Source: Salipiger sp. H15 (GTDB lineage Bacteria; Pseudomonadota; Alphaproteobacteria; Rhodobacterales; Rhodobacteraceae). Taken from it: a stretch of DNA of 64,000 nt. The notes under the pieces are model-generated. The model did not search any database and was not told the DNA's origin. It worked only from the letters and a program-made list of their open reading frames with translations. This document shows positions 7,276 to 42,360 of this stretch, piece after piece (within the stretch, counting starts at the first letter, position 1; each line of letters begins with the position of its first letter). A program made the position numbers and the translations under genes. The stretch is from assembly GCF_040409955.1 (NCBI RefSeq), contig NZ_CP123387.1, positions 124,001-188,000 on the forward strand. The letters are read 5' to 3'.

Positions 7276-7531
7276 TGTCCCCGCGGGGACAAACCGCATC
7301 GGCAAGGCGCACCGGGCTGTCCCCGCGGGGACAGGGCGCGAAGTCCCCCGGCGGGACGACCCGGAAGTCCACCTGTCCCCGCGGGGACAGTATAGAGAGC
7401 AAGGCGTCCCCGCGGGGACAGTGAAGAGCAGATGCGTCCCCGCGGGGACGCGGAGTGGTGAGTGTCCCCGCGGGGACGGACGGAACAAGCGCCCGCAGCG
7501 GCGCGACATTGAAAGCGTCCCCGCGGGGACA
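7276..7531. repeat. Palindrome array upstream of parA (7 copies), putative centromere parS
   Basis: Exact 14-bp cores GTCCCCGCGGGGAC lie at 7277-7290, 7319-7332, 7375-7388, 7406-7419, 7436-7449, 7464-7477 and 7517-7530. The first three carry the full 16-mer TGTCCCCGCGGGGACA. A degenerate 15-bp version sits at 7343-7357. The TGT...ACA ends match the frame of the canonical chromosomal parS palindrome while the core differs. The last copy directly abuts the parA ribosome site (AGGAGG at 7531-7536), so binding there could also repress parAB. Confidence 0.8.
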
Positions 7532-7540
7532 GGAGGCAGG

Positions 7541-8845
7541 ATGTTTACACACGAAGACCTGGCGCGGCTGCAGGCGCAGTCGCTGAAGATGCAGGGCTGG
7601 ATCCGCCAGCAGACCTTCTCGCCCGAGCTCGAGAAGACCCTGCGCCGCTTCTCAAGCTGGGAGGTGGCCGAGCTGATCCTGCAGGTGAACCAGTCGACCC
7701 TGCGGGGCCGCATGGCCGCCGAGCCGCACCTGCCGCAGGGCCTCGTCGAAGAGGACGGCCGCCAGCGCTGGTACTCGCTGGAAGAGATCAACGAGATCCG
7801 CCGCAAGCTGAAGGTCAACCGCAAGAGCCTGATGCCCTACCGCCCGGCGAAGAAGCGGGCCTTCCGGGTGGCCATCTCGAACTTCAAGGGCGGCGCCGGC
7901 AAGTCCACCGTGGCGCTGCACTTCGCCCATGCCGCGGCGCTCGACGGCTACCGCGTGCTCTGCGTCGACTTCGACCCGCAGGCGACGCTTAGCCACTCGA
8001 TGGGCCTGTCGGACGTCACCGAGGAATACACCGTCTGGGGCATCATGGCGCGCGACCTCATCCGCGAGACCGAGCGGATGAACGCCGCCACCCGCGGCGC
8101 CGAGAGCGGCTCCGCCCTGCCCCAGCGCAAGCTGCCCGAGGCGATCACCTCGATGGGCCTGCGCGACCTGCGCGCCGCCGACTTCATCAAGCCGACCTCC
8201 TGGCCGACCATCGACATCATCCCCAGCTGCGCCAACGCGGCCTTCGTCGAGTTCGCCTCGGCGCAGTACCGGCACCTCAACCCGGAGTGGTCGTTCTTCG
8301 CCGCGGTCAGCCGCTACCTCGACAGCCTGCCGCCCGATGCCTATGACCTGGTGATCTTCGACTGCCCGCCCGCCATCGGGTACCAGAGCATGAACGCGGT
8401 CTTCGCCGCCGACATGCTCTACATCCCCTCGGGGCCGGGCTACTGGGAATACGACTCCACCACCTCGTTCATCGGCCAGCTCTCCGAGGCGCTCGGGGAT
8501 CTGTCGGGCTTCGAGGGGGTTGTCCCCGCGGGGACACTCACCCTGCCCAAGGCCTTCCTCGACATCCGCTTCCTGCTCACCCGCTACGAGACCGGCAACG
8601 AGCTGCACCGCGCGATGCGTCAAGCCTTCCAGAAGGTCTGGGAGGACAGGATGACCGAGCACCCGATCGAGATGACCCGCGCGGTCGAGCAGTCCGGGCG
8701 CTTCCTGAGCTCGATCTACGAGATCGACTACCGCGAGATGACGCGGGAAACCTGGCGCCGGGCGCGCGCCTCCTTCGACCGCGCCTACGAGGAATTCCGC
8801 TCCCACGTGCAGGTGGCCTGGGACAAGCTGGAGGATGAGGCATGA
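7541..8845 (+). CDS. parA: Partition ATPase ParA (with N-terminal HTH)
   Basis: 434 aa; the ATG at 7541 follows AGGAGG at 7531-7536. Residues 1-105 contain a MerR-like winged helix used by large (type Ia) ParA proteins to bind their own promoter. The deviant Walker A motif FKGGAGKST is at residues 115-123, followed by VLCVDFDPQATLS (Walker A' region) and LVIFDCPPAIGY (Walker B). With ParB and the palindrome sites it should segregate this replicon to daughter cells. It overlaps parB by ATGA. Codons around 8522-8535 form an exact copy of the palindrome (encoding VPAGT), so a centromere-type site is embedded in the gene. Confidence 0.93.
   Translation: MFTHEDLARLQAQSLKMQGWIRQQTFSPELEKTLRRFSSWEVAELILQVNQSTLRGRMAAEPHLPQGLVEEDGRQRWYSLEEINEIRRKLKVNRKSLMPYRPAKKRAFRVAISNFKGGAGKSTVALHFAHAAALDGYRVLCVDFDPQATLSHSMGLSDVTEEYTVWGIMARDLIRETERMNAATRGAESGSALPQRKLPEAITSMGLRDLRAADFIKPTSWPTIDIIPSCANAAFVEFASAQYRHLNPEWSFFAAVSRYLDSLPPDAYDLVIFDCPPAIGYQSMNAVFAADMLYIPSGPGYWEYDSTTSFIGQLSEALGDLSGFEGVVPAGTLTLPKAFLDIRFLLTRYETGNELHRAMRQAFQKVWEDRMTEHPIEMTRAVEQSGRFLSSIYEIDYREMTRETWRRARASFDRAYEEFRSHVQVAWDKLEDEA
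8521..8536. repeat. Palindrome copy inside parA
   Basis: A full TGTCCCCGCGGGGACA inside the parA reading frame, translated as VPAGT within a segment that is otherwise ordinary ParA sequence. Confidence 0.85.
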
Positions 8846-9939
8846 GCAAGCGACGCGGCTTCGACATCGACTTCCCCGAGACGGCAGACGGGGCCTACAC
8901 CGGCGATCTGCGCAAGCCCAAACCCGAGGAGCCCGCGAAACCCGCGTCCCGGCGGGGACCGATGGCGGCGGCGATCACGGAAAACGCCGAGGCCCTGCGC
9001 GACCGCGCCGAGGCCGAGCGCGCCATCCGCGAAGAGAACGACCGGCTGGCGCATGACTACGTGCGGCTGAAGCGCGCCGGGCTGATCACCGACCTCGTGC
9101 CGATCGACGCGGTGCGGGCCACCAAGCTGACCCGCGACCGCGCCGCCGGGCCCGACCCCGAGATCGAGGAACTGAAGGCCTCGATCCGCGAGGTGGGCCT
9201 CTCGAACCCGATCCGCGTCGAGCCGGTGGGCGACCATTACGAGCTGGTGCAGGGCTTCCGCCGGCTCTCGGCCTACCGCGAGCTCTACGCCGAAACCGGG
9301 GACGAGACCTATGCCCGCATCCCCGCGGGGCTGGTCGCCTCGGGCGAGGCGCTGGTCGATCTCTACCGCAAGATGGTCGACGAGAACCTCGTGCGCCGCG
9401 GCATCTCCTTTGCCGAGATGGCGCAGCTGGCGCTGGCCTTCACCCGCGACGAGGACACCGGCGTCACCGACATCGAGGAGGCGATCACCCTGCTCTACGC
9501 CTCCGCCGGGCGGCAGAAGCGCAGCTACATCCGGCATTTCGCCACGCTGATCGAGGAACTGGGCGAGGACCTGCGCCACGCCGAGGCGATCCCCCGCAAG
9601 CTCGGGCTCGACCTCGTCAAGCGCATGGGGGACGAGGAGGGCTTTGCCTCGGGGCTGCGCGAGATGCTGGCCGGGCAGGGCGAGGTCTCGTCCGATTACG
9701 AGGTGGCGCGGCTCACCGACGCGCTGAAGAGCGCGCCCAAGGCCGGGCCGAAGCCGAAGGGCAGCAGCGCCAATGCGGCCGCCAAGACCACGCTGCGCTG
9801 CACTGTCCCCGCGGGGACAGTGCGCTGCGCGGCGCGCGACGGCCGGGTGGAACTGGCGATGGAGCGCGACTTCTCGAGCATCGACCGCCACCGGCTCGAG
9901 GCCGCGGTCGCCGCCTTCATGGCCGCGCTCGACGACTGA
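8842..9939 (+). CDS. parB: Partition protein ParB
   Basis: 365 aa, overlapping the parA stop by ATGA, so the two are translationally coupled. After a charged N-terminal region (about 1-85), residues about 90-185 form the ParB N-domain (EIEELKASIREVGLSNPIRV ... YELVQGFRRLSAYREL), the CTP-binding clamp region, followed by a helical DNA-binding region (about 195-290) and a C-terminal dimerisation segment. It should bind the TGTCCCCGCGGGGACA sites and load ParA. The linker before the C-terminal domain contains an exact copy of the palindrome (9805-9818) encoding VPAGT. A one-mismatch copy at 8946-8959 lies near the start. Confidence 0.92.
   Translation: MSKRRGFDIDFPETADGAYTGDLRKPKPEEPAKPASRRGPMAAAITENAEALRDRAEAERAIREENDRLAHDYVRLKRAGLITDLVPIDAVRATKLTRDRAAGPDPEIEELKASIREVGLSNPIRVEPVGDHYELVQGFRRLSAYRELYAETGDETYARIPAGLVASGEALVDLYRKMVDENLVRRGISFAEMAQLALAFTRDEDTGVTDIEEAITLLYASAGRQKRSYIRHFATLIEELGEDLRHAEAIPRKLGLDLVKRMGDEEGFASGLREMLAGQGEVSSDYEVARLTDALKSAPKAGPKPKGSSANAAAKTTLRCTVPAGTVRCAARDGRVELAMERDFSSIDRHRLEAAVAAFMAALDD
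8946..8959. repeat. One-mismatch palindrome copy in parB 5' region
   Basis: GTCCCGGCGGGGAC differs from the 14-bp core at a single position. It may be a decayed or weak site. Confidence 0.5.
9800..9823. repeat. Extended 24-bp palindrome inside parB
   Basis: The core at 9805-9818 is extended by five matched bases on each side (GCACT / AGTGC), the longest perfect palindrome of the set, inside the parB reading frame. Confidence 0.85.
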
Positions 9940-9970
9940 CGCTCGCCAAAGCCGCGCCGGGCCGAGGCCC

Positions 9971-9998
9971 CTGTCCCCGCGGGGACAGCGGCTTTTTT
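9971..9998 (+). terminator. Palindrome followed by T tract after parB
   Basis: The first downstream palindrome (9971-9988) can fold as CTGTCCC / GGGACAG with a CGCG loop, and TTTTTT follows four bases later (9993-9998). It may act both as a partition site and as the parAB transcription terminator. Confidence 0.5.
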
Positions 9999-10562
9999 CT
10001 TGCCCGCACCCCGCAGGCCGCGTCCCCCGAAACAACCTGTCCCCGCGGGGACAGGTCCGTGAGCCGCTCCGACCTGCCAGACTGTCCCCGCGGGGACAGC
10101 ACAAAAATCGCCGCACCGCACCGGACCTTTCGTCCCCGCGGGGACAGCGCCCCGATCACATCGGCCGGTGATCGGCATGGCCTGTCCCCGCGGGGACAGC
10201 GACGATCCGGCGCCGCTCTTCCCGGTCGTGTCCCCGCGGGGACAGATCGCAGCGCACCCTTTTCCATGGCCCGCTATCGAGAGGGGAGCGCGCGCCCTCC
10301 AGAGGCATGGGGGCCGGGGCGGGGGCAAAGCCGCTGTCCCCGCGGGGACAAACACTCTCCGGCTGCGCCTCTCTCTCATAGTGTCCCCGCGGGGACAGAA
10401 CAGCGCGGCATGTCTCACGCCGGGGTGTCGTCGGGCCCGAAGCACTCCCTGTCCCCGCGGGGACACCGCTTTTATCACGTGGGGCGGGCCAACTTGGATA
10501 GCTGTCCCCGCGGGGACGGGCTCCGCCGGGCGCCGCCATTCGCGGGTGTCCCCGCGGGGACA
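9972..10562. repeat. Palindrome array downstream of parB (11 copies), putative centromere parS
   Basis: Exact 14-bp cores at 9973-9986, 10039-10052, 10084-10097, 10132-10145, 10184-10197, 10230-10243, 10336-10349, 10383-10396, 10451-10464, 10504-10517 and 10548-10561. Nine of the eleven have the full TGT...ACA 16-mer; the copies at 10132 and 10504 have one altered flank. The copy at 10035-10056 is extended to 22 bp. Centre-to-centre spacing is 44-106 bp and the spacers are unrelated to each other. Confidence 0.85.
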
Positions 10563-12259: not shown

Positions 12260-13054
12260 TCAGCTGCTGCCGCGGACCGCCCAGACCCGCGCGGCGAGCA
12301 GGATGCGTCCGTCCGGGTCGGTGGGCAGGCCTTGCTCGAGCCGGGCGCGGAGCGCCTCGCGCTGCGCCTCGCCGAGCCCGGCGCAATAGCCGGGCGCGGG
12401 GCCGACCCCCGACAGGAACGGCGTCCAGTAATCGTCGAAATCGGCAAAGGGCGTGGCGATGTCGATCGCCGCGCAGGTGACCTCGCCAAGCCCCGCCGAG
12501 CGGAACAGCGCCTCGAGCGCGTCCGGGTGGCAGACCGGGAAGCGCCGCCCCTCGTCGAGCGCCTGCGCGCCCGGGTCGAGCGCGACGGCCGCGTCCCAGA
12601 ACCGGCGCATGAACTGCGCGTGCCCGGCGTAGTCCCAGACATAGGCCGCCACCGTCCCGCCGGGGCTTGTGCAGCGCCGCAGCTCGGCCAGCGCGCGGTC
12701 CTTGTCGGGGATGAAGTTCAGCACCAGCCCCGAGACCGCGCAGTCGGCGGCACCGTCGCCGAGCGGGATCGTCTCGCCGTCGCCCTGCACGAAGCGCACC
12801 CTCGGGTCGGTGATCCGGCGCCCGGCGAGCGCGAGGAAGTCCTGCGAGGGCTCGACCCCGGTGACCGAGGCGGGCGCGCAGCCTTGCACGATCTGCTCGG
12901 TCAGCGCGCCGGTGCCGCAGCCGAGGTCGAGCCAGCGCAGACCATCCGGCATGTCCAGCCAGCCGAGGAAGTCGCGCCCGGCCTTCCGGCTCCACCGGCC
13001 GACGTACATTTCATAGGCATCCGCCCCGAGCCATTTGTCCATCATCGTCGTCAC
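12260..13054 (-). CDS. Class I SAM-dependent methyltransferase
   Basis: 264 aa. The Rossmann-type fold is marked by motif I LRWLDLGCGTGALTEQI (about residues 39-55), the acidic residue after strand 2 (VTGVEPS), and DPRVRFVQGDGETIPLGDGA before motif IV (DCAVSGLVLNFIPDK). The N-terminal AYEMYVGRWSRKAGRDF is typical of the UbiE/COQ5-like Methyltransf_11 group. Small-molecule methylation is likely but the substrate is not predictable. Its stop is 11 bp from the stop of the convergent transporter gene. Confidence 0.85.
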   Translation of the reverse strand: MTTMMDKWLGADAYEMYVGRWSRKAGRDFLGWLDMPDGLRWLDLGCGTGALTEQIVQGCAPASVTGVEPSQDFLALAGRRITDPRVRFVQGDGETIPLGDGAADCAVSGLVLNFIPDKDRALAELRRCTSPGGTVAAYVWDYAGHAQFMRRFWDAAVALDPGAQALDEGRRFPVCHPDALEALFRSAGLGEVTCAAIDIATPFADFDDYWTPFLSGVGPAPGYCAGLGEAQREALRARLEQGLPTDPDGRILLAARVWAVRGSS

Positions 13055-13514
13055 CCTCCCTCTGCTGCCGGGACGAGGGTAGCACGGATCGCGCCCCGCG
13101 TCCGCGCCGCCGGTCCGGGCCGGACGGTGCGGGCCGCGCCCAAGTCACGGGCAGCGCAGCGCAAAGCCGGCGCCCTCCGGGGTCGGCAATGTTCGATCAA
13201 GGCAGTTTTGTGGTGGAAACTCACGTCTTCTCGTGACGCGGGGGCATTTTCGATATACCTATGGATGCAGTGCGTCGTGTCTTCGCCGGAAAAGCCGGGG
13301 GTGTTACCAACCCGCGGCCGGTCCGGGGCCGGAAAATGGCGCAGAGTTTTGAACGAACCGTTTAATTGAAGTGAATTTTCTGCGCCGCGCGGCGCGCCCG
13401 AGCCATTTGATGGGCGCCCGTACCGGCTCGATCATGTGTCTTGTGCGTGCGGCCCGGGGCGGGACGCCCCGCCGGGTGAAGGCGCCCGGCCGTCATTTTG
13501 AATGGAGAGATTTC
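13055..13514. other. 460-bp intergenic region between divergent genes
   Basis: It separates the methyltransferase and the TetR-hydrolase fusion, which are divergently transcribed, so both promoters should be here. An AT-richer patch at about 13235-13265 and another at 13345-13375 are the most promoter-like parts. No gene or strong palindrome was seen. Confidence 0.4.
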
Positions 13515-15188
13515 ATGGAGGATGTCATAGTGACCAATCGCGACCCGGCTACCGACGGCGATGGCGAGGGGGTGGCGCGGCGTCATTGGAAGCAGAACCC
13601 CGAAGCGGTGCGCGCCAATATCCTCGATGTCGCGCGCAAGGCCTTCGTGGCGCATGGTCTGACCGGGGCGAAGATCGACGACATCGCCGCCGGGACCGAG
13701 ACCTCGAAGCGGATGATCTACTACTACTTCGGCGACAAGGAAGGGCTCTACCGCGCGGTGCTCGAGGACACCTACGCCCGCGTGCGCGCGGCGGAGGACA
13801 GGCTCGACCTGGCCAGCCTGCACCCGGTCGAGGCGCTGCGGCGGCTGGCGGAATTCACCTTCGACCACCATGCCGAGAACACCGATTTCATCCGGCTCGT
13901 CATGGTCGAAAACCTGCACAATGCCGCGCACATGGAAAAGGTCGAGGACATCGCCGGCAAGAATGTCTCGGCGGTCGGGCTGCTCGACGAGATCTACCAG
14001 CGCGGCTGCGCCGAGGGGCTGTTCCGGCGCGGGCTCACGGCGCTGGAGCTGCGCTGGCACATCTCGGCGCTGGCCTTCTTCAACGTCGCCAACCGGCCGA
14101 CCTTCTCGCATCTCTACGGCGACTCGCTGTTCGACCCGAAGGGCCAGCAGCAGCTCAGGCGGCACATCGGCGACATGCTGCTGCGCTTCGTGATGAAGCC
14201 GGGGCTCTCGGTCGAGGAGGCGGCGGTGCGCCCGGTGACCGAGACCCGCGCCATCCATCCCGACATCTACCGTTTCCGCGAGACCTGGGACGCCACCTGG
14301 GCGACCCTGCCGACCGAGGGCGACGCCACCACGCGGCGGCTGCATTTCGAATCCGTGTCGCGCTCTCTGCGCCTGCCCAGCCCCGAGGGAGTCGAGACCG
14401 ACGAGGAGCACTGGATCGACACCGAGAGCGGCCCGGTGCGGGTGCGGCTGTTCCGCCCGCCGGACCCCGAGCCGCTGCCTGCCGTCGTCTACCTGCACGG
14501 CGGGGCCTGGCGGCAGGGCAGCCCCGAGACCCACTGGAACATCACCTCGCGCATGGCCGCCTGGTCGGGGCACCTGGTGATCTCGGTGGATTACGCGCTG
14601 GCGCCCGAGGCGGCCTATCCGGCGGCGCTGCACCAGATTCCGGCGGTGCTGACCTGGGCGCGCGACCATGCCTCGATGCTGGGCATCGACCCGGAGCGGC
14701 TGTCGATCGCCGGCGACGGGGCAGGGGGGAACCTTGCCGCGGCGGTGGCGCTGATGTGCCGCGACGCCGGGCTGCCGCTGGCGGCGCAGCTGCTGATCTA
14801 CCCGATCTGCGACTTCGACACCTCGCGCCCGTCCTGCTCGGAATATGCCGAGGGCCCGCTCTGGACCCTGGCGCAGCTGCTCTCGGCGCACGCGGGCTAT
14901 TGCCCGGACGTGACGCTGCGCCTGTCCGACCCGCTGGTCGCGCCGCTGCTGGCCTCCAGCCACGAGGGGCTGCCGCCCTGCTACCTCGCGCTGGCCGAGC
15001 ATGACCCGATGCGCGACAGCGGTGCCGCCTATGGCGAGGCGCTGCGGGCGGCGGGCGTGCCGGTGCAGGTCGATCCGGGCGTCGGGCTGGTGCGCGACTA
15101 CCTGCAGGCCATCGGCTTCGGCACCGCCGCCGAGGACCGGCTGCGCGAGATGAGCGCCTGGCTCAAGGAGGAGGTGGCGGCGCGCTGA
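13515..15188 (+). CDS. TetR-family regulator fused to a catalytically degenerate HSL-type alpha/beta-hydrolase domain
   Basis: 557 aa; the ATG at 13515 has GGAGAG at 13504-13509. Residues about 28-220 are a full TetR regulator: the HTH GAKIDDIAAGTETSKRMIYYYF is split here as GAKIDDIAAGTETSK and RMIYYYFGDKEGLY, followed by a helical ligand/dimer domain. Residues about 250-557 are an HSL (hormone-sensitive lipase) family hydrolase fold with the oxyanion motif HGGAW (328-332). The nucleophile elbow reads GDGAGG with Gly402 where Ser is expected, and the catalytic His position reads GLVRDY with Arg527, while the Asp (EHDP, Asp497) is kept. Seen: one uninterrupted frame. Inferred: the hydrolase fold is a ligand sensor, not an enzyme. 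Target genes are unknown. Confidence 0.85.
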   Translation: MEDVIVTNRDPATDGDGEGVARRHWKQNPEAVRANILDVARKAFVAHGLTGAKIDDIAAGTETSKRMIYYYFGDKEGLYRAVLEDTYARVRAAEDRLDLASLHPVEALRRLAEFTFDHHAENTDFIRLVMVENLHNAAHMEKVEDIAGKNVSAVGLLDEIYQRGCAEGLFRRGLTALELRWHISALAFFNVANRPTFSHLYGDSLFDPKGQQQLRRHIGDMLLRFVMKPGLSVEEAAVRPVTETRAIHPDIYRFRETWDATWATLPTEGDATTRRLHFESVSRSLRLPSPEGVETDEEHWIDTESGPVRVRLFRPPDPEPLPAVVYLHGGAWRQGSPETHWNITSRMAAWSGHLVISVDYALAPEAAYPAALHQIPAVLTWARDHASMLGIDPERLSIAGDGAGGNLAAAVALMCRDAGLPLAAQLLIYPICDFDTSRPSCSEYAEGPLWTLAQLLSAHAGYCPDVTLRLSDPLVAPLLASSHEGLPPCYLALAEHDPMRDSGAAYGEALRAAGVPVQVDPGVGLVRDYLQAIGFGTAAEDRLREMSAWLKEEVAAR

Positions 15189-15203: not shown

Positions 15204-16550
15204 TCAGAAGGCGCTGGTCAGCCCGGCGCTGATCGTCAGGTCGTCGTAGCTGTAGGCGTCGATCGAGCTGTCGCGCCGCGCCACGCCGATCTGCAGGTAG
15301 GGGGTGAGCCGCCCGAAGACGAAGCTGTCGGTCTTGTCGAGCCGCAGGTCGAGCCCGTACTCGGTCTCGTATCGTGGCTCGCCGAGGCCGGGCGTCGCGC
15401 CGACCTGGTCGAAGGCGGCGGCATAGACCGAGGGCTCGATGAGGAACCCCCCGCCGAGCTCGGTCCGCCCGCCGAGGCGCAGCTCGGCATAGTCGTAGGA
15501 GAGATCGTCGCGCGCCGCGTCCTGGTGCTGCAGCGAGAGGCTCCCGGCGACCTGGGCGCGGCCGCGCAGCGGGCGGATCACCGAGAGCTGCGCGCTGGCG
15601 CGGGTCACCTCGGTGTCGGGGTAGCGCTCGAGCGTCACGTCCACCAGCTCGGCCTCGAGCGTCGTGGTCAGGCCCGCGGCGCTGCGCCAGCTCACCCCGG
15701 CGCCGAGCCCGAGCCGTTCCTCGACCATGTCGCCGCCGAAATAGTCGGTGCCGGCGATGAGCTCGGCCCAGGCGGTGGTCTGCGGCCAGGTGAGCTGCAG
15801 CCCGGCGCTGAGGTCGGCGCCGAGCTCGTCCCAGTCGCTGCCCGAGGTCTGGTAGATCTCGCCCTCGGCCTGCAGGTAGCCGGTCAGCGTGGCGCCGCCC
15901 GCGGCGCTGCGCAGCGGCCATTGCTTGCGGATCGTCCCGCCGAGCTCGATGCCGGTCTGCGGCGCCTCCTCGCGGTTCATCGTCAGCACCATCGGCCCGT
16001 AGCCGAGATCGGCCTCGACCTTGTCGGTGTCATAGCTGCGCCCGGCGCCCTCGGGGGCGCGGAGCGCGAAGGAAAAGCGCGTGCGCAGCCCCTGCCGCTC
16101 GTCGATGGCGCGCAGGAAGCGCAGCACGTTGGTGCGCACCATGGGCGGCAGGTCGGGGCTCGAGAGCACGATGCGGAACTGCTCGCGCGACTGCGCGTAG
16201 TCGCCCGCCTCGAAGAGCGCGCGCGCCAGCTCGAGCCGGACGCGCAGCAGGCCGGGATCCTGTGCGAGCAGCTTGCGCAGAAGCCGCACGGCGGCATCGG
16301 GCTGGCCCTGAACCACGGCGGCGAGCGCCTGCTGGAAGCCGGCCTCCATCTCGGCGCCGGTGGCGGCGGCGGAAGGGGTGGGGGACGCAACAGGGAGCGG
16401 GGCCGGGCCCTGCTGCGCCTGCGCCGCCGGGGCGGGAAGAAGAACCGCGGCGAGCGCGACCGCGACGGGCAGCGCCCGCCACGGAAGCGACCGGGCCGCG
16501 GGACGGCAATGCGTCCGGCGGCCCGGCCCGGGGAATGTCCGGGCAGTCAT
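15204..16550 (-). CDS. SLAM-like outer membrane protein (TPR + DUF560 barrel)
   Basis: 448 aa. The signal peptide ends near AAQAQQ (about residue 46). Residues about 65-150 are TPR-like (GFQQALAAVVQGQPDAAVRL, RLELARALFEAGDYAQSREQ), and residues about 155-448 are alternating amphipathic strands ending in a C-terminal Phe, a beta-barrel signature. TPR plus barrel is the architecture of surface lipoprotein assembly modulators (SLAM, DUF560), which carry lipoproteins to the cell surface. It starts 3 bp after the stop of a TbpB-like lipoprotein gene, which is the expected client. SLAM function in this group is inferred from architecture and pairing. Confidence 0.8.
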   Translation of the reverse strand: MTARTFPGPGRRTHCRPAARSLPWRALPVAVALAAVLLPAPAAQAQQGPAPLPVASPTPSAAATGAEMEAGFQQALAAVVQGQPDAAVRLLRKLLAQDPGLLRVRLELARALFEAGDYAQSREQFRIVLSSPDLPPMVRTNVLRFLRAIDERQGLRTRFSFALRAPEGAGRSYDTDKVEADLGYGPMVLTMNREEAPQTGIELGGTIRKQWPLRSAAGGATLTGYLQAEGEIYQTSGSDWDELGADLSAGLQLTWPQTTAWAELIAGTDYFGGDMVEERLGLGAGVSWRSAAGLTTTLEAELVDVTLERYPDTEVTRASAQLSVIRPLRGRAQVAGSLSLQHQDAARDDLSYDYAELRLGGRTELGGGFLIEPSVYAAAFDQVGATPGLGEPRYETEYGLDLRLDKTDSFVFGRLTPYLQIGVARRDSSIDAYSYDDLTISAGLTSAF

Positions 16551-16552
16551 GG

Positions 16553-17449
16553 TCAGCGGCTGGCGTCGACCGCGCCGAAGGCGCCCACGTAGGTGCTGGT
16601 CGCGGTGGTGCCCGAGAAGGTGCCCCCCACTTCCTGCGCGTTGCCGCCATAGAACTGCCCGTCGAGCGCGCCGGTCAGCGTGCCCGTGTCGATGTCCGCC
16701 GAGAAGCCCGAGCCGCTGACCGCGCCTTCGGCGTAGAAGTCGAGGTCGGGACGGGTGGCGATGGTCGCGCCGGTCGTCGGATCGGCGGTGACGGTGTTGC
16801 TGCTGTAGACCTCGACAGTGTCGAAGTCGGTGTCCACGGCGACGTAGGAGGTGGTGACCGCCACGTCTCCGCCGGTGATCACCTGCCCGAGGCTGTCGCC
16901 GTAGTAGCTGGCGGTGCCGGTGGTGGGCATCTGGCTGGCCGAGGTGCGTGCCCCGACCGAGCCGGCGCCGGCCCTGCGCGAGGTACCGGTGAGCCCGGTC
17001 TGCCAGGTGCCGAAGGTCTGGTACTCGTAGCCCTGCTTGTCGGGATCGGCGATCAGCAGGGTCTTGTCGCCGTCGGCGCTGGCAATCAGCAGCCCGCCGG
17101 AGACGGTGGTGACGTCGAAGACGTCACCGTTGGCGGCAGAGAGGATGATCTTGCCCTGGTCGGTCTTCACGGTGACGCCGGTCAGCTCGCCGCCCTCGTA
17201 GGTGAGCAGGGCGGTGATGTCATCCTGGGTCACCGGGGTGTTGACCTTGGTGACGGTGCCATCGGCGTTGGTCTTGTAACTGGTGGTGACGGCCAGGCCA
17301 CTGGCGCTGTAGGTGCCGTCGCCTTTCGTCGCGACGTCGGAGAACGAGATGAAACCGGTGGTGCCCGACGACTTGCTGGAACTGGTGTGACCGTCGCTGC
17401 AGGCGGCAGCAAGAGACAAAGCGGCCATACTGGCAAAGAGATATTTCAT
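16553..17449 (-). CDS. TbpB-like surface lipoprotein, likely SLAM client
   Basis: 298 aa. The lipobox LAAACSD places the lipidated Cys at residue 17, followed by a Ser-rich linker. The C-terminal 100 residues form a beta-rich domain ending with GQFYGGNAQEVGGTFSG, which matches the transferrin-binding-protein-B-type eight-stranded barrel motif (FYG-x-x-A-x-E-x-GG-x-F). Such barrels are found in host-ligand, heme or other surface-binding lipoproteins. The ribosome site GAGGAA precedes the ATG. It is the first gene of a two-gene operon with the SLAM-like protein. The ligand is unknown; no TonB receptor is adjacent. Confidence 0.8.
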   Translation of the reverse strand: MKYLFASMAALSLAAACSDGHTSSSKSSGTTGFISFSDVATKGDGTYSASGLAVTTSYKTNADGTVTKVNTPVTQDDITALLTYEGGELTGVTVKTDQGKIILSAANGDVFDVTTVSGGLLIASADGDKTLLIADPDKQGYEYQTFGTWQTGLTGTSRRAGAGSVGARTSASQMPTTGTASYYGDSLGQVITGGDVAVTTSYVAVDTDFDTVEVYSSNTVTADPTTGATIATRPDLDFYAEGAVSGSGFSADIDTGTLTGALDGQFYGGNAQEVGGTFSGTTATSTYVGAFGAVDASR

Positions 17450-39448: not shown

Positions 39449-39943
39449 ATGAGCAAGATGCACGTCAAGTTCACGCTGAACGGCCAGGAGGTCGAGGGGC
39501 TCGCCGAGCCGCGGATGCTGCTGATCCACTTCCTGCGCGAGAACCTCAAGGTCACCGGCCCGCACATCGGCTGCGAGACCAGCCATTGCGGCGCCTGCAC
39601 CGTCGACATGAACGGCAAGTCGGTGAAGTCCTGCACGGTCTTCGCCTGCCAGGCCGAAGGGGCCGAGATCACCACGGTCGAGGGGCTGACCAACCCCGAC
39701 GGCACGCTCGGCGTGCTGCAGGAGATGTTCCGCGAGCACCACGGGCTGCAATGCGGCTTCTGCACGCCGGGGATGATCACCCGCGCGCACCGGCTGCTGC
39801 AGGAGAACCCGACGCCGACCGAGGAGGAGGTGCGCTTCGGCATGTCCGGAAACCTCTGCCGCTGCACCGGCTACCAGAACATCGTCAAGGCGATCCTCGC
39901 CGCGGCGGACCAGCTCAACTCCCACCAGGAGGCCGCGGAATGA
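39449..39943 (+). CDS. coxS: Aerobic CO dehydrogenase, Fe-S (small) subunit
   Basis: 164 aa. Two [2Fe-2S] clusters: the plant-ferredoxin type with [14 protein letters not shown], and the four-helix type with QCGFCTPGM and [10 protein letters not shown]. It carries electrons from the Mo-Cu site to FAD. It is preceded by AAGGGGGGAA and overlaps coxL by ATGA. Confidence 0.96.
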
Positions 39944-42360
39944 AGGACGAGGTTCAATCCCCCGAAGAGCGCAGCGCCGGCCTGAAGGGCATGGGCTGCT
40001 CGCGCAAGCGGGTCGAGGACGTGCGCTTCACGCAGGGGCGCGGCAACTACGTCGACGACATCAAGCTCGACGGCATGCTGCAGGGCGACTTCGTGCGCTC
40101 GCCCTATGCCCATGCGCGCATCGTCTCGATCGACACATCGGCGGCGCTGGCGGTGCCGGGCGTGCTGGCGGTGCTGACCGCCGCCGATCTCGCGCCGCTG
40201 GGCCTGCACTGGATGCCGACGCTCGCGGGTGACAAGCAGATGGTGCTGGCCGACGGCAAGGTGCTCTTCCAGGGCCAGGAGGTCGCCTACGTCGTCGCCA
40301 GGGACCGCTACGCCGCCGCCGATGGCATCGCCGCGGTGGTCGTCGATTACGAGGACCTGCCGGTCGTCACCGACCCGTTCAAGGCGATGGCCCCGGACGC
40401 GCCGGTGCTGCGCGAGGATCTCGCCGGCCAGACCGAGGGCGCGCATGGTCCGCGCCGCCACCACAACCACATCTTCACCTGGGAGCAGGGCGACAAGGAG
40501 GCCACCGAGGCGGTCCTCGCCGGCGCCGACGTGGTGGCCGAGGAGATGGTCTACTACCACCGCACCCATCCGATGCCGCTGGAAACCTGCGGCTGCGTGG
40601 CGTCCATGGACAAGGTCACCGGCAAGCTGACGCTCTGGGGCACCTTCCAGGCGCCGCACGCGGTGCGCACCGTGGCCTCGCTGATCTCGGGCATCGCCGA
40701 GCACAACATCCGCGTCATCAGCCCCGACATTGGCGGCGGCTTCGGCAACAAGGTGGGGGTCTACCCGGGCTACGTCTGCTCGATCGTCGCCTCGATCGTC
40801 ACCGGCAAGCCGGTGAAATGGGTCGAGAGCCGGATGGACAACCTGATGTCCACCGCCTTTGCCCGCGATTACTGGATGCAGGGCAAGATCGCCGCCACCA
40901 AGGAGGGCAGGATCACCGGGCTGTGGTGCCACACCACCGCCGACCACGGCGGCTTCGATGCCTGCGCCGATCCCACCAAGTTCCCCGCGGGCTTCATGAA
41001 CATCTGCACCGGGTCGTATGACATCCCGGTGGCCTATCTGGCGGTGGATGGCGTCTACACCAACAAGGCGCCGGGCGGGGTGGCCTACCGCTGCTCGTTC
41101 CGCGTGACCGAGGCGGCGTATTTCATCGAGCGGATGATCGAGGTCCTCGCGATCAAGCTGAACATGGACGCGGCCGAGCTGCGGCGGATCAACTTCATCC
41201 GCAAGGACCAGTTCCCCTACCAGTCGGCGCTCGGCTGGGAATACGACAGCGGCGACTATCACACCGCCTGGGAAAAGGCCCTGAACGCCGTCGGTTACGA
41301 GGCGCTGCGCAAGGAGCAGGCCGAGCGGCTGGAAGCCTTCAAGCGCGGCGAGACCCGAAAGCTGATCGGCATCGGGCTGACGCATTTCACCGAGATCGTC
41401 GGCGCGGGCCCGGTGAAGAACTGCGACATCCTCGGGCTCGGCATGTTCGACAGCTGCGAGATCCGCATCCACCCCACCGGCTCGGCCATCGCCCGGCTCG
41501 GCACGATCAGCCAGGGGCAGGGCCACGCCACGACCTTCGCGCAGATCATCGCCTCCGAGATCGGCATTCCCGCCGATGACATCACGCTCGAGGAGGGCGA
41601 CACCGACACCGCGCCCTACGGGCTTGGCACCTACGGCTCGCGTTCCACCCCGGTCGCCGGGGCGGCCACGGCCATGGCGGCGCGCAAGATCCGCGCCAAG
41701 GCGCAGATGATCGCCGCCTACCTGCTGGAGGTGCATGACGACGACGTCGAGTTCGAGGTCGACCGCTTCGTGGTCAAGGGCGCACCCGAGCGCTTCAAGA
41801 CGATGAAGGAGATCGCCTTCGCCTCCTACAACCAGGCCATCCCGGGGGTGGAGCCGGGGCTCGAGGCGGTCAGCTACTACGACCCGCCCAACATGACCTA
41901 TCCCTTCGGCGCCTACATCTGCGTCATGGAGATCGACGTCGACACCGGCGAGCACGAGGTGCGCAGCTTCTACGCGCTCGACGACTGCGGCACCCGGATC
42001 AACCCGATGATCATCGAGGGCCAGGTGCATGGCGGCGCGACCGAGGGCTATGCCATCGCGATGGGGCAGGAGATCGCCTACGACGAGATGGGCAACCACA
42101 AGACCGCGACGCTGATGGACTTCTTCGTGCCGACCGCCTGGGAGACGCCGCACTATACCACCGATTTCACCGTCACCCCGAGCCCGCATCACCCGATCGG
42201 CGCGAAGGGCGTGGGCGAAAGCCCGAACGTCGGATCGGTGCCGTGCTTCTCCAACGCCGTGCACGATGCCTTCCGGCCCTTCGGGCTGGTGCAGAGCCAC
42301 ATGCCGCACGACCACTGGCGGATCTGGAAGATCGCCGAGGATCTCGGCCTGCACGCCTGA
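39940..42360 (+). CDS. coxL: Form I aerobic CO dehydrogenase, Mo-Cu (large) subunit
   Basis: 806 aa, close to the Oligotropha CoxL length. The active-site loop reads [13 protein letters not shown], the form I signature AYXCSFR, with Cys385 as the ligand of the copper of the Mo-Cu centre; form II enzymes have AYRGAGR instead. Molybdopterin-cytosine-dinucleotide contacts include [10 protein letters not shown] and [11 protein letters not shown], and the conserved catalytic Glu is in [12 protein letters not shown]. It oxidises CO to CO2 with water. Coupled to coxS by ATGA overlap. This is strong evidence of a true CO oxidiser. Confidence 0.97.

Follow-up and report, generated by a model that had tools for sequence, protein, structure and literature searches.

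A TetR-type regulator fused to an esterase-like domain without catalytic serine and histidine in Salipiger and Alloyangia

Why would a transcriptional regulator carry a hydrolase domain that lacks the residues for catalysis? The question is raised by an open reading frame at 13515..15188 of the window, the 64,000-nucleotide stretch of DNA from a marine bacterium that was analyzed here. The frame encodes a 557-aa protein that joins a TetR regulator to a hydrolase of the hormone-sensitive lipase (HSL) family. A preliminary description, made from the letters alone, proposed that the dead esterase pocket of this protein serves as a ligand sensor, comparable to the plant gibberellin receptor GID1. 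Its further statement that no such regulator has been described agrees with our literature search, where no regulator of this architecture appeared among the open-licence PMC titles and abstract starts listed, themselves a partial set. The gene, its promoter elements and all codons given below lie on the forward strand unless noted otherwise.

All three Pfam domains of the fusion score above their cut-offs. The helix-turn-helix domain TetR_N (residues 36-82, segment TETSKRMIYYYF; 13620..13760, E 9.2e-12) reaches 45.0 bits against a cut-off of 24 and has its conserved positions as in stand-alone relatives, and TetR_C_29 (residues 104-221; 13824..14177, E 2.3e-40) reaches 137.9 bits against 26.2, so the TetR domain pair is present. 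The hydrolase core matches Abhydrolase_3 (residues 324-521; 14484..15077, E 1.6e-57). Ahead of this core, the AlphaFold2 model predicts helices at residues 249-262 and 271-284, in a region (residues 249-286; 14259..14372) that we take, from knowledge of the family, to be the HSL cap. The model has a mean pLDDT of 92.7, and its pTM of 0.70 makes the predicted arrangement of the domains uncertain. Foldseek retrieved HSL esterases at 27-36% identity among the matches listed, and phmmer among solved TetRs matched 3npi. Alignment to the solved HSL esterases 6k34 and the Est2 forms 2hm7 and 1evq places Gly402 (14718..14720) at the position of the nucleophile serine, Asp497 (15003..15005) at the catalytic acid and Arg527 (15093..15095) at the catalytic histidine. 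The window protein has the HSL fold, the oxyanion motif (HGGAW) and the acid, and the Ser-Asp-His triad is absent from it. In these respects the preliminary description read the single frame and its residues correctly.

An artificial join of two separate genes by sequencing or assembly, which that description had raised against itself, can be ruled out because six further genomes of the genus encode this fusion intact, with no stops, at 78-84% identity; in addition, full-length fusions make up 100 of the 120 homologues listed. Of the 20 genus genomes searched, 7 have the fusion, and it is absent from the other 41 genomes of the same search. Plasmid records that contain the dead form come from Alloyangia pacifica (two) and Salipiger sp. 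CCB-MM3. We prefer the start at 13515 over an upstream GTG at 13371 since a GGAG-type element before the ATGGAGGA start is conserved in the seven aligned promoters. In the window this element is the Shine-Dalgarno-like TGGAG at 13503..13507, upstream of the ATG.

We then have to consider whether the architecture as such implies a dead sensor, as the preliminary description assumed. The homologue set consists of the best 120 of 1093 homologues, with 100 full-length fusions, 5 partial ones and 15 stand-alone hydrolases. Among the full-length fusions, 87 of 100 have an intact Ser-Asp-His, as do all five partial ones, the very finding that the description had named as speaking against its proposal, and the TetR/HSL architecture is therefore not in itself a dead sensor. 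The 13 fusions with a dead triad have Gly/Asp/Arg (seven, the clade of the window protein), Gly/Asp/His (five) or Asn/Asp/His (one). Together with a second search (best 120 of 5815), the triad is intact in 101 of 102 stand-alone hydrolases, a rate not directly comparable with that of the fusions because the two sets were drawn by similarity to a live and a dead query, respectively. In a tree of 150 hydrolase halves, built by quick search with 45 of the 102 stand-alone hydrolases and with the two trait columns taken out, the live/dead trait changes six times. The six triad losses map to the window's clade and the P0008/P0013/P0111 group (support 100 for each) and to P0015, P0032, P0048 and P0095. 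By this comparison the dead form is a derived subclade of an architecture that appears to be mostly an enzyme-regulator.

The genomic context of related TetRs suggests what this regulator type originally controlled. The scan of the genome collection (best 80 of 582 relatives) returned mostly stand-alone TetRs. QuiC (3-dehydroshikimate dehydratase) or shikimate dehydrogenase (SDH) was found nearby in 63 of 75 stand-alone-TetR loci (QuiC in 57, SDH in 58) at a threshold of at least 60 bits, which lets in distant matches, with proteins of live-fusion loci as probes. These loci span Pseudomonas, Rhizobium, Comamonadaceae and actinobacteria. With a stricter cut (38% identity for QuiC or 42% for SDH), 51 of the 75 loci remain, 43 of them with QuiC. 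QuiC is the firmer marker, as the SDH probe may also match biosynthetic AroE. The probes match Shikimate_dh_N, DctM, DctQ, DctP and the QuiC model NF042435, the last with 683.9 bits, which is below its curated cut-off of 1200. Neither QuiC nor SDH was found in 12 of the 75 stand-alone loci, seven of which lie on stretches shorter than 15 kb.

Live fusions have similar surroundings. QuiC or SDH is present in six of seven live-fusion loci (QuiC in three, SDH in six) and the TRAP permease gene dctM in six of seven; one locus (L126) has neither QuiC, SDH nor TRAP context. A live fusion from outside the host's family (L165) is accompanied by QuiC, SDH and a TRAP system, and a Sagittula plasmid locus (L150) encodes a TRAP permease at 90% identity along with an annotated type II 3-dehydroquinate dehydratase. 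A DUF3237 protein is encoded in five loci with fused or unfused TetR and hydrolase (L124 at 8430-8933, L127 near 8534, L128 near 8442, L022 at 10966 and L023 at 4601), and a gene resembling SMP-30/gluconolactonase recurs in L023, L121, L122, L123, L129 and L150. Given QuiC or SDH in 63 of 75 stand-alone and six of seven live-fusion loci, the ancestral fusion looks like a repressor of quinate/shikimate catabolism joined to an esterase. The context of these relatives points to quinate/shikimate-type compounds in place of the terpenoid-like ligand that was first suggested. No account of a quinate/shikimate role for this TetR family was found in the listed portion of open-licence PMC titles and abstract starts, a scope outside which most subscription papers fall. 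The TetR half of the window protein agrees with the TetR type of these loci in sequence family, recognition-helix positions and operator type. The seven dead-fusion loci have no QuiC or SDH, and a TRAP system is present in a single one of them (L115), where it is distant (DctM 36%).

Several loci show the two genes in states other than a fusion. In L127, TetR and hydrolase share one frame with a single stop between them, and one codon separates this stop from the likely hydrolase start. The two genes overlap in different frames in L130 and L131, and a 43-aa TetR remnant directly precedes an intact stand-alone hydrolase in L129. Fused and stand-alone TetRs are interleaved in the TetR tree with six changes and several weak branches, and the hydrolase tree has 16 changes between fusion and stand-alone; neither count distinguishes a fusion event from a fission, and cut contigs may account for some of the stand-alone rows. 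The interleaved TetR tree and the L129 remnant imply that the fusion arose more than once or was undone. Among 394 genomes of the family sample, 14 match at 1e-90, with six fusions (the window's included), one unfused pair and seven with the hydrolase part only. In the class sample, 3 of 385 genomes match at 1e-80; two of these are fusions, one being the window's own.

The upstream regions of these TetRs contain sites of the form TGWAC-N6-GTTMAT, and several loci (e.g. L021, L023, L028, L031, L121 and L124) have two copies 30-31 bp apart. We trained a weight matrix on 51 sites, drawn from 38 of the 88 non-dead loci and excluding the dead clade; the training sites matched a preset pattern, which yielded no sites from Pseudomonas and Streptomyces loci. 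The top match of this matrix in the 64-kb window is a predicted operator at 13347..13369 (core TTGAACGAACCGTTTAA at 13349-13365) in the fusion's own promoter. It scores 16.2 bits, compared with 12.5 for the next site and 11.9 for the best of 20 shuffles that preserve 2-base blocks only. The site lies some 150 bp ahead of the start codon. It aligns across the clade as one of the few conserved blocks in an otherwise diverged promoter. The own-promoter site also ranks first in five of six related dead loci; in the sixth (L119) the fusion operator comes second at 10.4 bits, and the leading site (11.8 bits) is a different one immediately upstream of the fusion frame.

Pattern searches of whole genomes were also made. 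TTKAAC-N5-GTTTAA has exactly one match per genome in six of the seven dead-fusion genomes, always before the fusion, and the reversed-pattern control has one match in the window's genome (G000) and one in G005. The seventh dead-fusion genome (G014) has TGTACAAATTCGTTCAT before its fusion. In the window's genome, TTGAAC-N5-GTTTAA with one mismatch allowed occurs at three places versus four for the reversed control, and WTGWAC-N6-GTTMATW at five, the fusion's site included, versus none. Elsewhere in the promoter, an AATGTTC half-site at 13188..13194 may be a degenerate second operator, since AATGTWC aligns in six of the seven dead-clade promoters and L116 and L118 have a fuller form. A partly conserved block, CGTGAC...TATACC at 13232..13259, resembles a promoter in the seven-promoter alignment and is tentatively assigned as such. 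The clearest predicted target of the dead fusion is its own gene.

Other candidate targets in the window's genome are less convincing. Weaker sites lie near 319,399 of contig C2 (15.0 bits) and at C1:856136 and C2:882519. The second match in the window, at 39937 (12.5 bits against 11.9 for the best shuffle), is in a tightly packed stretch where the gene calls conflict (either a frame at 39586-42360 or one that ends near 39943), and is probably due to chance. Control of the neighboring POT transporter gene (match from 10708) was considered and rejected, with no standout site upstream of it in the window. One weak match (8.2 bits with a dead-clade matrix) is found at 7027 in L115, just before the POT gene, and we take the conserved synteny with this gene as shared surroundings. 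The same genome also has a QuiC and SDH-like locus (C2:372873-374747, L152). Control of this locus in trans is unlikely, as there is no operator in the surrounding 20 kb (best -0.4 bits) and genes read from their translations as LysR-like are found there. The quinate-type TetR loci of the six other genomes have their own tandem sites, most of them ending in GGTTAAW, which suggests that the dead-fusion regulator and the quinate-type TetR are insulated from each other.

The neighborhood of the fusion has some further features. A class I methyltransferase-like gene on the reverse strand (12260-13054) lies between the POT transporter and the fusion, and it has no match in the six related loci. On the other side, convergent to the fusion, the reverse strand at 15204-17449 encodes a Slam-type surface lipoprotein assembly modifier (SlipAM, TPR) and, after it, a lipoprotein resembling TbpB that may depend on Slam. 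The Slam-type gene is present in all seven dead-fusion loci and the TbpB-like gene in six. At 7276-10562 of the window there are 19 copies (at most one mismatch) of the palindrome TGTCCCCGCGGGGACA, with none in 100 shuffles. They surround the genes at 7421-8845 and 8842-9939, whose positions match those of the AAA-ATPase and ParB-type genes annotated in an Alloyangia pacifica plasmid, and the array is likely a parS-like plasmid partition array. Such palindromes also precede the POT gene in L115, L116 and L118.

We consider it probable that the gene derives from a TetR of the quinate/shikimate-catabolism type that was joined in frame to an esterase gene just downstream, and that in the Salipiger/Alloyangia clade it is an autoregulated repressor carrying a non-catalytic pseudo-esterase. 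In most lineages the fusion would probably be bifunctional, repressing itself along with divergent genes for TRAP uptake, shikimate dehydrogenase and QuiC, while its live HSL esterase would free the pathway acid from an ester. Based on the context, the ancestral ligand and substrate would be a quinate/shikimate-pathway acid and its ester, with chlorogenate-like esters as one candidate substrate that we propose. In the Salipiger/Alloyangia clade the gene is located away from catabolic genes, on plasmids where records show it, and the serine and histidine are lost. There the TetR half is predicted to bind the operator in its own promoter and to autoregulate; as established for TetR regulators, a dimer would occupy the site, and a ligand in TetR_C_29 would trigger its release. 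The dead hydrolase would stay as a non-catalytic module, most likely as a ligand-binding modulator of the repressor or a structural part.

In the TetR half, conserved positions among the 85 stand-alone TetR rows, a set that counts the L129 remnant and TetRs from unfused pairs, comprise T63, K65, R66, M67, Y69, Y70, H118, R127, E132, N133, S184, N193 and F197. At the conserved positions the majority residue is identical in stand-alone, live-fusion and dead-fusion proteins, except for E43 and R53, which differ. H118, R127, E132, N133, S184, N193 and F197 may line a candidate ligand pocket. Since the recognition helix and the candidate pocket residues of the 85 stand-alone relatives are also found in the TetR half, the esterase pocket need not be the sensor.

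The hydrolase half is under a different degree of constraint. In the dead clade, the hydrolase has a mean pairwise dN/dS of 0.267, compared with 0.128 for the TetR half. The nonsynonymous ratio of hydrolase to TetR averages 1.71 (1.14-2.05) in the dead clade versus 0.93 (0.68-1.42) in seven live fusions, with overlapping ranges and most live pairs more diverged than the dead ones. These seven are from eight loci tried, the other (L127) being an unfused pair. Of the hydrolase positions, 94 show at least 95% conservation across 188 live sequences. All seven dead members retain 76 of them and have lost another 10, and the remaining 8 are mixed. From dN/dS and the hydrolase/TetR ratio, the dead hydrolase half appears relaxed yet constrained by purifying selection. 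The initial interpretation stands to the extent that a TetR/HSL fusion without serine and histidine is under purifying selection, but not as an account of the architecture, which is mostly live. Of 21 clade-specific substitutions, 20 are invariant, which carries no evidential weight because shared ancestry accounts for it.

The faster evolution of the hydrolase relative to the TetR half also fits a decaying relic, an inert passenger kept through its joining to a working TetR or as a folding aid. We regard this as possible, though rather unlikely. The 10 positions lost in all dead members and the distance of the gene from the catabolic locus agree with it, and the TetR remnant beside an intact hydrolase in L129 demonstrates that the halves can decay apart. 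On the other hand, the six other dead-clade copies among the homologues listed are all full length and 77-86% identical to the window protein, and dN/dS is well below 1 across the hydrolase half.

The proposal that this is a one-component sensor, in which the dead pocket binds an ester and acts as the main sensor much as the HSL-fold GID1 does with gibberellin, is in our view doubtful. The retained oxyanion motif, Asp497 and 76 strongly conserved positions argue for it, as do the hydrolase dN/dS of 0.267 and the roughly six triad losses on the hydrolase tree, with fusions making up 13 of the 14 dead rows. It is weakened by the candidate pocket that the TetR half retains for itself, by a hydrolase constraint weaker than in live fusions, and by the absence from the window protein of the serine with which GID1 contacts its hormone. 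A staged version of this idea, in which live fusions cleave the ester precursor of the inducer in cis, the nucleophile is then lost repeatedly and independently, and the dead pocket becomes an ester sensor controlling TetR, is just as speculative. If true, bacteria would have a counterpart of GID1 in a single chain, and its live ancestors would still exist. That the whole dead-fusion gene is a functionless plasmid-borne leftover is very improbable. In favor of this reading, the clearest operator is the one before the gene itself, and no functionally linked neighbor was found at the loci; against it, the operator is aligned in an otherwise diverged promoter and the TetR half has a dN/dS of 0.128.

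The autoregulated repressor with a pseudo-esterase thus remains our preferred explanation. The analysis also suggests, for this family of TetRs, an operator and a role in the catabolism of quinate and shikimate. Enzyme-derived sensors are usually recognized only after the fact, and the dead-fusion group may show the change from enzyme to sensor. Since unfused neighbors, live fusions, dead fusions and a predicted operator and pathway are all found in one family, the steps of fusion, catalytic loss and change of ligand can be put in order by direct tests.

Each half of the protein has counterparts among known proteins. The TetR_C_29 regulators beside QuiC and SDH are 43-58% identical to the window's TetR half, with the same recognition-helix positions and, in 38 of 88 non-dead loci, the same operator type; they differ in being stand-alone proteins at a catabolic locus with no esterase domain. 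The esterases Est2, Est8 and EstS1 share the fold of the hydrolase half at 27-36% identity among the matches listed, and esterases of this family are matched by sequence search as well, whereas the window protein is without their serine and histidine and bears a TetR domain. GID1 is a plant protein that acts through DELLA and an SCF complex and is not known to have a DNA-binding domain. It is reported to be an HSL-fold receptor that has lost its catalytic histidine and uses its serine and aspartate to contact the hormone (PMC3531792). The preliminary comparison with GID1 is apt for an HSL-family fold without catalysis, which in GID1 became a receptor; GID1 keeps its serine, however, and the parallel is loose because this residue is also gone from the window protein. 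NrtR is described as a Nudix hydrolase fused to a helix-turn-helix domain, with dual-function prototypes and other members that lost activity yet repress (PMC6800001). As in the family of the window protein, a hydrolase is joined to a DNA-binding domain with both active and dead members. In NrtR the pair is Nudix and winged HTH, while the TetR half of the window fusion has its own C-terminal domain as a possible ligand binder; by Pfam the window protein has no Nudix and no NrtR HTH domain, so the likeness is in the way of working only. MocR/GabR regulators are likewise reported to be transcription factors whose sensory part is an enzyme fold, and differ in combining a PLP aminotransferase-like fold with a GntR wHTH, compared to a TetR/HSL family in which 87 of 100 fusions retain the full triad. 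By analogy, the dead fusion is nearest as an idea to NrtR and to MocR/GabR.
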